Below, in pieces: positions 37,846 through 43,335 of a DNA stretch of 64,000 bases. Position numbers and translations under genes: made by a program. The notes below the pieces were generated by a model. That model searched no databases. It was not told where the DNA came from and saw nothing but the letters and a program-made list of their open reading frames with translations. Positions within the stretch are counted from its first letter, which is position 1. Every line of letters begins with the position of its first letter. The stretch comes from Stigmatella aurantiaca DW4/3-1 (GTDB taxonomy: Bacteria > Myxococcota > Myxococcia > Myxococcales > Myxococcaceae): the NCBI RefSeq assembly GCF_000165485.1, contig NC_014623.1:6404893-6468892 (forward strand), in the 5' to 3' direction.

Positions 37846-40800
37846 TTGGCTACAGTGAATCGGGTCCTTCGCGCGCTCGAGCAGGCAGAAGCGAAGATCG
37901 TGGCGCTCGAGCAGCGACGCGACGAACCGATCGCCATCGTGGGCCTCGGATGTCGCCTTCCCCGAGGCAACTCTCCAGAAGCATTCTGGCGCGCGCTTGA
38001 CGCCGGAATCGACGCGGTATCGGAGATCCCAGAGTCGCGTTGGCGTCTCGATGCGTCGTTGCGAAAAGCACGCTGGGCGGCGCTGCTCGACGACACCGAT
38101 GTCATGGGGTTCGACGCCGGATTCTTCGGTGTCTCGCCGCGCGAGGCGGCAGCGATCGATCCGCAACAACGGTTGTTTCTCGAGGTCTCGGTAGAGGCCC
38201 TTGAAGACGCAGGGGTTCCGCTCGAGTCGGTGCGCGGCTCACGAACGGGTGTGTTCGTCGGGATGATGACGCTGGACTATCAACATCTCTCGATGGGTAG
38301 TCCGATAGACAAACTCGACATTTATACGTCCACGGGCATTGGTGCTTGTTTCGGCAGTGGGCGTCTTTCTCATATTCTTGGATTTGAAGGACCCTCTCTC
38401 TCCACCGACGCTGCCTGTTCGTCTTCTCTGGTCGCGCTTCATCTGGCTTGTCAGAGCTTGCGTGCTCGCGAATGTGATCTCGCTGTCGCAGGCGGCGTGA
38501 ATCTGATGCTGTCGCCGTGGACGATGCACCTGTTCGTGAATATGCAGGCGCTCTCTCCCGAGGGACGCTGCCGCACGTTCGACGCGGGCTCCAATGGCTT
38601 CGTTCGAGGCGAGGGCTGCGGCGCCATCGTGCTCAAGCGTCTGTCGGACGCTCTGCGCGACGGTGACTCCATTCGGGCGCTGGTCCGCGGCTCGGCCGTC
38701 AACCACAACGGGCGCTCAAGCGGTCTGACGGCCCCCAGCGTCCTAGCGCAGCGAGCGCTGCTCCAGCAGGCGCTGGCGGCGTCACAAGTACAGCCCCAGG
38801 ACATCAGCTACATCGAGGCACACGGTATCGGCACCCCGCTGGGAGATCCGATCGAAATCGAGGCCCTCAAGGCCGTGGTGGGTGCACCACGCCCCGATGG
38901 CTCGAACTGTGTGATTGGCTCGGTGAAGACCAACGTCGGTCATCTGGAGGCTGCCGCGGGGATCGCGGGGATCATCAAGACGGTGCTCGCTTTCGAGCAC
39001 GAGCGCATTCCGCCGCATCTGCACCTCGAGACCTTGAACCCGCGGATCGAGCTACAGGGGTCGGCGCTGGCGATCTCCGGCCCTGGCCAAGCCTGGCCGC
39101 GAGGGGCCCGGCCAAGGCGAGCGGGGGTGAGCGCATTCGGCCTCAGCGGCACGAATGCGCACGTGGTGTTGGAGGAGGCCCCCGCCCCGGCCGCTGGGGC
39201 AGTGGAGCTTGCCGCCGATGGTCTGCCTCATGTCGTGGTGGTGACGGCACGCAGCGAAGCGAGCTTGCGACGCCTCGTTGCGCGATACGCGGAACGCCTG
39301 GAGGCGGAGCCCGCGCTGCCGATCCGAGACGTCGCTTACACGACGGCCATGCGGCGCAGCCATCACCCCCATCGGTTGGCGGTGGTGGGCAGGACCTCTG
39401 GCGAATTGGCCTCGAGCCTCCGGCGATGGCTCGATGGCGTCGAGCTCCCTCATCTGCGCACCGGACGCGCCGCTCCCAGTGGAGCACCGCTCGTATTTCT
39501 GTACTCGGGCGACGCGGAAGCGTGGCGCCCCCTGGGACGAGCCCTGGACGAACGTTCGGAGGCCTTTCACCGGGCCCTGCAACAATGCCAGGAGGCGTTC
39601 TCGGCACTGGGTGCCACGGTCTCATTGCTCGATCAGTTGCGGGCGTCCCCCCCGGAGCGGCCAGAGCTCTCAGCCCTGGCGCTGTTCGCACTTCAAGTGG
39701 CTGTGACAGCGGAGTGGCGGGCCTGCGGCGTGGTCCCGGATCGCGTGCTGGGGGACGGCATCGGCGAGCTGGCCGCAGCGCATGCGGCTGGCATTTTGCC
39801 GCTCGAAGCTGCGGCCGAGGTCGTCTGGCGCCGCAGCGAAGTCCTGGCTCAAGCCGGTAAGCCCCCCCCTGCCCTGCTCGCTGAAGCAGCCAAGGCACTG
39901 GAGCCAAGGCTATCAGCACTGACCCCGAAAGATGGGCACATCCCCTTCTTCTCGGCGGTGACCGGACAACGCGAAACGGGCGAGACCCTGGGCGCGTCGC
40001 ACTGGGCACGCCAACTGCGCGAGCCAGTGCGGCTCGGAGAAGCATTGCAGCAAGCCCTGGGAGGCGAGCCTGGGGTGGTGGTGCAGGTCCATGCGTCCGC
40101 GGCACCGGCGGCCCTCATGAAGCTGACCGAGCCAGGCAGCGGCCAAGGCCGGGTTCGCGTCGCCTCCAGTCTGCGCCCAGATGCACCGGGGCGGCAGGTC
40201 ATGCTCGAAGCACTGGCGGAGGTGTTCGTCGCCGGAGGCGCTGTGGCCTGGTCCGAAGGTCCCCATGCACGGGGGCGCCTGGTGCGCTTGCCGACTTATG
40301 CTTGGGAACTCGAGCGGCACTGGCTTGAGCAAACCCACGGTGAGCCGGTGGCCGCGTCGGCAGTTCGGCCGGACAGTGCTGGAGCCGCAGAGCGTGAAGC
40401 GAAAGAGCGCAAAGCCTCGCCGCTCCTCGTTCAGCGGTGGCAGCCGCGAGCGTCCAGTCCGGGGGCGCAGGGCGAACCTTCGCAGAGCGGTGGTAAGTGG
40501 TTGCTCGTGGGCTCCGACGAGCCGCACAGCACCCGGTTGTCGGCCCTGCTCCGCGCCGCCGGTCAAAACGTGACCTCCTGGCAGTGGGACGGCAGCGACG
40601 CAGCCATCGAGGCAGCGTTGACCATGGCTTTCGGCGAGGAGGACGCGCGCGGCATCGTGGTGTGCGGGGGCTTCGGAGGCTCACTGCCGGACAAGCTCTC
40701 GGGAGCGGAGTTGCAGGTGCAAGTGGAGCGGGAATGCAGGGATGTCCTGCAGCTTGCCCAGCGGGCGGCACAACGTCGGTGGCGGCGCGCAGCACCGCGG

Positions 40801-43335
40801 CTCTGGCTGATCACCGAATCATCGCAACGGGTCGTTTCAAACGAGGCGGGCGGCGGAGCACCGGCCGCAGCGCTGCGCGGTGCCGCGCTGTGGGGACTGG
40901 GCCGGACGATCGGCCTGGAGCACCCAGAGTTGCGCTGCACGCGCCTGGATATCGAGAAGCAGTCCGAGTTGGAGCAAGTGGTCGCGGAACTCTTGCGCGA
41001 CGCAACGGACGAGGAACTGGGGCTGCGTGGCACATCATGGTACGCCGGGCACCTCGAGCGCCCGAGCCAAGCACCGGGCCATGCTCACCGCGAGCCATCG
41101 CAAGGTCGGCCTTTCCGGCTTGAACTCGATCGAGCCGGGATCCTTGATCAGATGAAGTTCCGCGTGGCGCAGGTGGCTCCTCCCGGTCCCGGGCAGGTAC
41201 GCGTGAAGGTGGCCTCGGCGGGACTGAACTTCATGGACGTGATGACCGCCATGGGCATCTACCCCGGTGCCAACACCGGCGGGCTCGAGCCCATCATCCT
41301 GGGTGGGGAGTGCGCGGGAGTCATCGAGGCGGTCGGACCCGGGGTCGAGACCCTCTCGGTAGGCGATCAGGTCGTGGCGGTGGGCAGAGGATGCTTCGGC
41401 TCGTTCCTTACAACGGACGCCGCTTACGTCCAGCGACGGCCCGAGGGCCTGGACACGATCCTGGCCGGCGGGGTCCCGATTGTGTTCCTCACCGCCTGGT
41501 ACGCGCTCATCACGCTCGGCCGTTTGCAGCCGAAGGAGCGCGTCCTCATCCACTCAGCGGCGTCGGGCGTCGGACTCGCCGCAGTGCAGATCGCGCAGTG
41601 GCGCGGTGCCGAAATCTATGCCACCGCTGGCACGGAGGAAAAACGGGAACTGCTGCGGCAGATGGGCCTCACCCTTGTCCTGGACTCGCGCACCCAGGCC
41701 TTCTCCGCCGAGATTCTCGAGGCCACCGGCGGCGAGGGCGTGGACATGGTGCTCAATTCCCTGTCGGGTGAGTCGATCGAATCGAGCATTGCCACCCTGG
41801 CGAGCGATGGCCGATTCTTCGAGATCGGCAAGACGGACATCTACAGCGAGGACCGCGCACTGCGCCTGCTGCCGTTCCGTAAACGGATCTCGTACCAAGC
41901 CGTGGACCTGCTGGGGCTGGCGCAGGAACGCAAGCAGCGCTTCGCGGCGCTGTTCGCCGAGGTGATGGAGGCGTTTGCCTCGGACGTCCTGCGCCCATTG
42001 CCCACCGAGGTGTTTGCCGCAGCCAGCACCCTCGAGGCGTTTCGCCTCATGGCATCGGGCCGACACACCGGCAAGCTGGTGGTGAAGGCGGAGGGGGCAG
42101 AGGTCGAAGTCGAACAATCAACGGCGCCGGTGATCGACGAACGGGCCAGCTACCTGGTGACCGGCGGCGCGAGTGCGCTGGGGCTGTCGCTGACCGAGTG
42201 GCTCGTCGAGCAGGGAGCTCGGCACATCGTGTGGTTGAGCCACCGCGGGCCGGCGGGCGTGCCCACCTCGGAGGCGACGCGCCTGGAAGCATTGCGCGCA
42301 CGGGGCCTCGAATTGAAGGTCCACCTGGGCGACGTGAGCCAGGAAGCCGATGTTGCGGCAGCAGTGACCGCGGCCGAGGCCATGGGGCCCTTGCGCGGCG
42401 TGGTGCACGCGGCCAATGTGGATGACACCCGTGCAAGTCCACAAAGCGGTGCGGCGCCCAGCGCGGTGATGATGCCGAAGGTGGCGGGTGCATGGAATGT
42501 GCACATGGCGACCGAACGAGCGCCATTGGATTTCTTCGTGCTCTGCTCGTCGGCCTCGGCACTTCTCGGAGCACCGGGTTTGGCCTGGGACGCCGCCGCC
42601 AACGCCTTTTTGGATGGGCTGGCCCGCCATCGGCGGCACCGCGGACAAGCCGCGTTGAGCGTGCAGTGGGGACCGGTTTCCGCCGAAGACGGTGGCGCTA
42701 CCCTCGCCGCAGGGGGAGTCTGGAACCTGGCTCCCCACGAAGCCTGGCAAGCGCTGCGCGCGCTGCTGGCGGCTGGTACCGACAACGCTGGTGTGATCCG
42801 CTTCAACGCCCGCCAGCTGATTGAGTATCACCCCCATCTGGCCAGCGGGACCCGCTTTCTGCCGCTGCTGGCCAGCGGTGACGAGCCCATTCAGGCAGGA
42901 GATCGCGCATTGCTCGCCCGCTTCGCCAAGGCGAGCGAAGCCGAGCGCATCGCACTGATCGAACAGCTGATCCGCCAACAACTGGCACAGCTGCTCCGCA
43001 CGGACCTCGATCGCATCGAGCAGGATCTTCCTTTCAAGTCTCTGGGCATCGATTCGTTGATGGGGCTCGAGCTGCGCAATCGCCTCGAGGCGGCCCTGGG
43101 CATTTCGCTGTCGGCGGCGCTGCTCTGGGCCTATCCCGATATGCGCTCGCTGCGCGAGTACCTGCTCAGCAGATTGATCGTCAGCGCTCCGCCCGTAGTA
43201 GAGGAACGCGGACCGGCCGTTCCGCGCGACACGGCTGATCAGAGCGCCTTGATGGATCTGCGCCAGCTATCGGACGAACAGAAGGCAGCGCGCCTCGAGC
43301 AAGAGCTTGAGTCTCTCGAGCGCCTGCTGCAGTAA
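37846..43335 (+). CDS. type I PKS, aberrant module: KS-AT(dead)-ER-KR(dead)-ACP
   Basis: About 1829 residues from TTG 37846. A docking coiled coil covers 1-27. KS (28-445) keeps the triad Cys191, His326 and His366, with EAHGIGT instead of EAHGTGT. The AT region (545-800) is gutted: GQGSQ reads GDAEA, the nucleophile motif reads G-D-G638-I-G with no Ser, and about 70 residues including the substrate-specificity motif are missing. There is no DH. ER (about 1090-1410) has an intact NADPH loop [15 protein letters not shown] (1420-1640) has a damaged TGGASALG loop, and Asp1582 replaces the catalytic Tyr. ACP Ser1737 is intact. A helical docking tail ends the protein. It probably accepts a chain and reduces it without extending it, or is acylated in trans (inference). 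It heads the rightward operon. Confidence 0.9.

Follow-up and report, generated by a model that had tools for sequence, protein, structure and literature searches.

The systems most similar to the one described here are found among polyketide synthases (PKSs) that depart from the rule of one module for one cycle of extension and reduction. In the type A dehydrating bimodules of trans-acyltransferase (trans-AT) lines, such as that of hangtaimycin (KS-KR-ACP-KS0//DH-ACP; PMC8456789), a partly reducing elongation module is followed by transacylation on a non-elongating ketosynthase (KS) and by the next processing step. Module 1 of the azalomycin F synthase, which belongs to a cis-AT line, has a switchable enoylreductase (ER): a single complete module iterates, and its ER is used in one round (PMC5518293, PMC9899208, PMC5082578). 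In a third case, the ER step comes from outside the elongating module, performed by GbnE, a discrete, FMN-dependent relative of FabK (PMC10921412). Here, we analyze p37, a protein of 1829 amino acids encoded by a modular PKS cluster of Stigmatella aurantiaca DW4/3-1. It lies in a window of 64,000 nucleotides (the whole stretch of DNA analyzed; G000:C1:6404893-6468892) of the one-contig genome of 10,260,756 bases; coordinates below are those of the window, unless the contig is named.

Judged from sequence, p37 is probably a non-elongating, enoyl-reducing module of a cis-AT line. Like the dehydrating bimodules, it would combine chain passing by a KS with the processing step that follows a partly reducing elongator; however, the hangtaimycin-type KS0 has a Cys-Asn-His triad, serves dehydration and works with ATs in trans (PMC8456789), whereas p37 has Cys-His-His, a putative enoyl reduction and the remnant of a dead AT in cis. 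Because both KS histidines are present, p37 is not a member of the KS0 family; of the likeness to trans-AT bimodules drawn in the first-pass annotation, the chain-passing idea is kept, but the second module would contribute an ER rather than a dehydratase (DH). Compared to azalomycin F, a separate module devoid of AT, DH and ketoreductase (KR) activity would supply the ER, and compared to GbnE, the p37 ER is a zinc-less enzyme of the MDR type that is embedded in a KS-ACP module rather than forming a stand-alone protein. No non-elongating ER module of a cis-AT line was found in the literature searched, which is a weak negative, since most subscription papers were outside its coverage. The parts of p37 are as follows (the mark ° denotes inactivity as read from alignments).

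37846..43335, plus strand: p37, KS-AT°-ER-KR°-ACP, start codon TTG (order from Pfam domains)
37924..39180, plus strand: KS with Cys191, His326 and His366 and the unusual motifs DAACSSS and HGIGT, invariant in three orthologs
38263..38274, plus strand: KS gate letters MMTL, with Met at position 2 (from the KS alignment)
39493..40365, plus strand: AT° remnant with GDGIG as Ser motif and a deletion at ~39864 to 39883 (Pfam positions 126-196 absent)
41122..42087, plus strand: ER with the intact cofactor loop HSAASGVG and Tyr in GIYPG
42145..42681, plus strand: KR° with Tyr replaced by Asp (42589-42591) and a changed cofactor motif
42967..43164, plus strand: ACP with GIDSL, invariant in three orthologs

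The first-pass annotation had described a complete KS triad, an AT with neither nucleophile nor some 70 of its residues, no DH, a KR with Asp for Tyr, an intact ER cofactor loop and a normal ACP, and all of these features were recovered. In the AT, GDGIGE stands where GHSxGE is expected, and the stretch that would carry the catalytic His is gone; the Pfam AT profile matches only at 1-125 and 197-316, i.e., 71 positions are missing, and, in the alignment to the PDB 7s6b chain, residues 122 and 143 correspond to 708 and 796, some 67 residues fewer. Without Ser, His and these 71 profile positions, p37 cannot load its own extender; of the features of an elongating cis-AT module, it retains the Cys-His-His of the KS and lacks the Ser/His pair and the complete fold of the AT. 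A Pfam domain search of p37 found no DH. The KR reads WDAAAN where the active KRs of the line have xYAAAN, and a Gly of its TGGLGxLG-like cofactor motif is changed. In contrast to these dead parts, the ER aligns over nearly its whole length with ERs of known structure (mycocerosic acid synthase, CurK, 3slk), and its motifs and those of the ACP are conserved in the orthologs; from the Tyr of GIYPG, a 2S methyl would be expected. The KS has two peculiarities: the Ala of DAACSSS occurs in 4 of 120 other KSs (two of them fragments), and the Ile that replaces Thr of HGTGT occurs in none of 119. An AlphaFold2 model of KS-AT°, made with seven window sequences, was of middling confidence (pLDDT 70.0, pTM 0.49), with KS-AT didomains as its best PDB matches (TM ~0.5), and carries little weight here. 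The reading frame is open over 37786/37846-43335 on the plus strand, and conservation between orthologs sets in at about LATVNRVL, which favours the previously proposed TTG at 37846 over 37786 as the start. Elsewhere in the genome, partial AT matches were seen at G000:C1:5937360-5937656 and G000:C1:29608-29949 (profile 20-116 and 17-131), within PKS open reading frames (ORFs) of 1462 and 1587 amino acids; these may be additional modules that lack a working AT.

The AT° sequence as query gave some AT match in 35 of 59 genomes, own included, and a clear ortholog in two others, G005 (same genus) and G017 (same family). When the phylum was searched (195 genomes), four passed 1e-28, namely our own, G005, G017 and G137; the G137 match has 32% identity and lies in an ORF parsed as ACP-KS-AT-AT-DH-KR-ACP-KS-AT-AT-ACP. 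Syntenic orthologs exist in 3 of 195 genomes, own included. The six PKS proteins, the three P450s and the FAD gene all have reciprocal best hits in G005 and G017, where the gene order is retained (with the cluster inverted in G017); since syntenic orthologs exist, p37 is not a chance observation. One search of genome contigs with the AT°-ER alignment found no relative.

Selection was measured as pairwise Nei-Gojobori omega between our genome and G005 or G017 (values are given in this order), with bootstrap intervals. Within p37, the KS (identity 0.94/0.87, omega 0.055/0.078), the ER (0.93/0.84, omega 0.090/0.194) and the ACP (0.93/0.82, omega 0.064/0.127) are conserved; the KR° has identity 0.84/0.79 and omega 0.154/0.233, and the AT°, which decays further in the orthologs and has a second deletion in G017, 0.74/0.68 and 0.254/0.231. 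Two other proteins of the line, p53 and p65, also contain ERs (~57793-58770 and G000:C1 ~6472009-6472995). In these, the cofactor motif is lost and differs between orthologs, there are deletions in G017, and evolution is faster, with lower identity (0.74/0.64 and 0.72/0.65) and higher omega (0.241/0.371 and 0.253/0.350) than in the p37 ER, whose cofactor motif is intact and invariant. For the pair with G005, the bootstrap intervals are separate: 0.090 (0.054-0.138) versus 0.241 (0.176-0.330) and 0.253 (0.184-0.342). By these measures, the p37 ER is the only one of the three ERs of the line that has been kept. The other proteins of the line are listed here.

21455..27232, minus strand: p21, KS-AT-DH-KR-ACP, most likely the donor of the enoyl chain, given the inferred order
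27063..37415, minus strand: p27, KS-AT-DH°-KR-ACP-KS-AT-KR-ACP
43348..53484, plus strand: p43, KS-AT-DH-KR-ACP-KS-AT-KR°-ACP; its first KS has the gate IGSP (non-enoyl type) and is the likely acceptor of the reduced chain
53491..59901, plus strand: p53, KS-AT-DH-ER°-KR°-ACP, with a decaying ER°
61300 to G000:C1:6474315 (past the window end), plus strand: p65, ACP-KS-AT-AT-DH-ER°-KR-ACP, loading and first module, the other possible donor

Four oxygenase genes accompany them: three P450s, one between p53 and p65 and two beyond p21, and an FAD mono-oxygenase that follows p65. In the DH of p27 module 1, the catalytic Asp region reads HPEPLNEAL, with Asp changed to Asn, and this DH looks inactive. 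An integrase-core (rve) gene lies near the right cluster edge (L010:10088-10705).

A dimer-interface loop of the KS has been described as a gate, with the motif VMYH for alpha,beta-unsaturated and TNGQ for D-beta-hydroxy chains; the double bond is contacted by the Met in second place, and the motif was mutation-tested in PikKS3 (PMC11321453). We took the four letters after VFVG as positions 1-4, which is our own reading. The alignment comprised 127 KS matches (fragments among them) from 12 genomes, tabulated by upstream module with one row per gate string. In a first set, classed by hand, VNTN was omitted because of a dead-looking upstream KR, IASS of G001 was placed with the non-enoyl families for lack of a KR match, and VMNN was placed with the enoyl-fed ones despite an upstream DH and AT unmatched by motif patterns; Met was found in 9 of 16 enoyl-fed families versus 0 of 9 others, and a small residue (G, A, S or T) in 0 of 16 versus 8 of 9. 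A second set, restricted to new strings and scored by domain architecture alone, gave Met in 3/9 versus 0/9 (p = 0.21) and small residues in 2/9 versus 9/9 (p = 0.0023). Pooled, 12 of 25 enoyl-fed KS families (DH-KR upstream) and 0 of 18 others have Met at position 2, and small residues stand there in 2 of 25 versus 17 of 18, although neither the two sets nor their rows are independent of one another, as several second-set families belong to clusters homologous to those of the first. The p37 KS has MMTL in all three genomes, and the first KS of p43 has IGSP or IGAP. Thus, an enoyl-type gate on p37 and a non-enoyl-type gate on p43 point to a change from an enoyl to a non-enoyl chain across p37, the site of the kept ER.

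The order p65-p27-p21-p37-p43-p53 is favoured by gene adjacency, gene order pointing to p27 followed by p21 and to p37 followed by p43 and p53. It is one of 12 out of 24 orders that reach the minimum of one gate mismatch (here, p65 to p27), and p65-p37-p27-p21-p43-p53 is another (p21 to p43); if the p37 ER is treated as inert, the minimum rises to two. In both of the orders that we weighed, the donor of the enoyl chain to p37 is a DH-KR module with a methylmalonyl-type AT. Docking-domain scoring against 34 adjacent protein pairs was near noise; in the three clusters, the order that we favour ranked 11th, 15th and 10th of 24. Docking sequences were also classed by eye, but we give this no weight as evidence. 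For the last two extensions, p43 module 2 and p53 would fit: both carry KR° (in p43, ~52324-52860) together with methylmalonyl-type AT motifs; no thioesterase (TE) match was found after the ACP in a Pfam domain search of p53. The partner proposed previously at 21455 does have the stated composition, KS-AT-DH-KR-ACP: its KR shows TGGLGGLG and NYAAAN, its DH has the catalytic His and Asp, and there is no ER. As predecessor of p37, it agrees with gene order and gates, but p65 directly before p37 fits the gates equally, and docking scores did not decide between them. Most likely, p21 is the donor, and p21 and p37 together would make one fully reducing cycle divided over two proteins.

From the dead AT and KR, the missing DH, the conserved KS, ER and ACP, and the gate types, we infer a transfer without elongation followed by reduction. 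An alpha,beta-unsaturated chain made by a DH-KR module upstream would be taken over by the p37 KS and, with no loaded extender to condense with, moved unextended to the p37 ACP; the ER would reduce the double bond with NADPH, and the saturated chain would leave p37, most likely for the first KS of p43. The earlier suggestion of a non-elongating enoyl reducer is supported in part, by the inability to load an extender, by the only conserved ER of the line and by the opposite gate types of p37 and the next KS. It is evenly balanced, in our judgement, whether this line has evolved a reducing bimodule of its own, in which a former elongation module, minus AT, DH and KR, was selected as a KS-gated, chain-passing ER and condensation is blocked by the missing extender and not by loss of a KS histidine.

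Several observations weigh against such a role. The p37 KS keeps every catalytic residue, and in a KS tree of 122 rows, a kind of check put forward in the first-pass annotation, it lies among ordinary cis-AT KSs, without a separate clade. When the second gate set was scored by crude motif patterns (three KS pairs being dropped for want of a gate match), Met was found in 1/5 versus 2/13 (p = 1) and small residues in 1/5 versus 10/13 (p = 0.047); these patterns misread ordinary DH-KR modules of polyene-type lines as inactive, hence the re-scoring by architecture. The gate table also holds three families of the cluster itself (FMNN, GAPN and IAAT) and assumes colinearity between some proteins, and every order tested has at least one gate mismatch. 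In the p21 DH (23408-24283), the HxxxGxxxxP motif reads HRIFDDVVVP, with Asp for Gly in all three orthologs, in a domain that is otherwise well conserved. Finally, in both pairs with G017 there is a slight overlap between the ERs in their omega intervals, and the p37 KR° is not clearly relaxed.

The intact, conserved Cys-His-His of the KS and the ACP would also suit elongation, if the ACP were charged in trans by a FabD-like enzyme or a neighbouring AT, with condensation by the KS and a beta-ketone passed on. AT matches that could act in trans were found in three ORFs of 314-353 amino acids in the genome (1286373, 1917510 and 6940581), but none of its short AT genes is within the cluster, and the enoyl-type gate, being compatible with elongation too, does not discriminate. 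Elongation without KR and DH would leave the p37 ER without a substrate, at odds with its conservation while the two other ERs decay; this route, named as the alternative from the start, has become less likely with the present data and is now an unlikely one. The dead AT and KR and the absent DH could instead mark p37 as a bypassed vestige, with p21 or p65 passing the chain straight to another KS, and the published aurafuron study reportedly mentions redundant modules; however, KS and ACP have omega as low as those of working modules, in three genomes, and we find this quite improbable. Context-dependent use of an ER within an iterative cis-AT module, as described for azalomycin F (PMC5518293, PMC9899208), gives a precedent for p37 as a docking platform, whose ER acts on the chain held by the ACP of another module, with no transfer to its own ACP being needed. 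We consider this very unlikely, as KS and ACP are conserved like the ER and the KS gate is type-specific. A non-elongating p37 that passes and reduces an enoyl chain is the reading that we prefer.

The cluster is likely the aurafuron line of DW4/3-1, as inferred from its content and by elimination. Compared to the other modular lines of the genome, it has the most modules, the only KR° pair that we noticed and four oxygenases; cluster B (G000:C1:4771264-4789212) resembles it in its ACP-KS-AT-AT loading protein but comprises four modules. In cluster B, the AT domains of three successive modules are nearly identical, as after recent duplication or gene conversion. Both a KR° pair and oxygenases would be required to make a 2-hydroxy-2,4-dimethyl-3(2H)-furanone like aurafuron. 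The likeness to the aurafuron line comprises ACP-KS-AT-AT loading, two KR° modules that would suit the end of the line, the lack of a TE match, an FAD mono-oxygenase and three P450s; two such KR° modules with no TE after them fit a diketo end that turns into a furanone. The 2007 aurafuron study of Frank and colleagues reportedly describes an iterative module, redundant modules and domains, no TE and four oxidoreductases, and possibly already lists p37 as redundant. Published accounts give isovaleryl-CoA as the aurafuron starter in DW4/3-1 (PMC9636800), two ATs behind an N-terminal ACP in the loading protein, and a 2-hydroxy-2-methyl-3(2H)-furanone skeleton shared by aurafuron. With p37 not elongating, this starter and seven extenders, five of methylmalonyl type and two of malonyl type as judged from AT motifs, would give C24, or C23 if a decarboxylation follows. 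According to a survey table, aurafuron is conserved in Stigmatella (PMC12224551); p37, however, occurs in only one of six other Stigmatella genomes searched, which speaks against the identification.

If our reading of p37 is true, it represents a little-known way for cis-AT lines to divide one reduction cycle between two modules, and colinear prediction overcounts the ketide units of such lines. The role of a redundant module is testable here, as carbon count and one double bond distinguish the models, and, as an idea for engineering, a chain-passing module added would be a reduction step added. A KS with all three catalytic residues could then act solely as a transferase when the extender is absent, and modules of cis-AT lines regarded as redundant could be working reduction stations.

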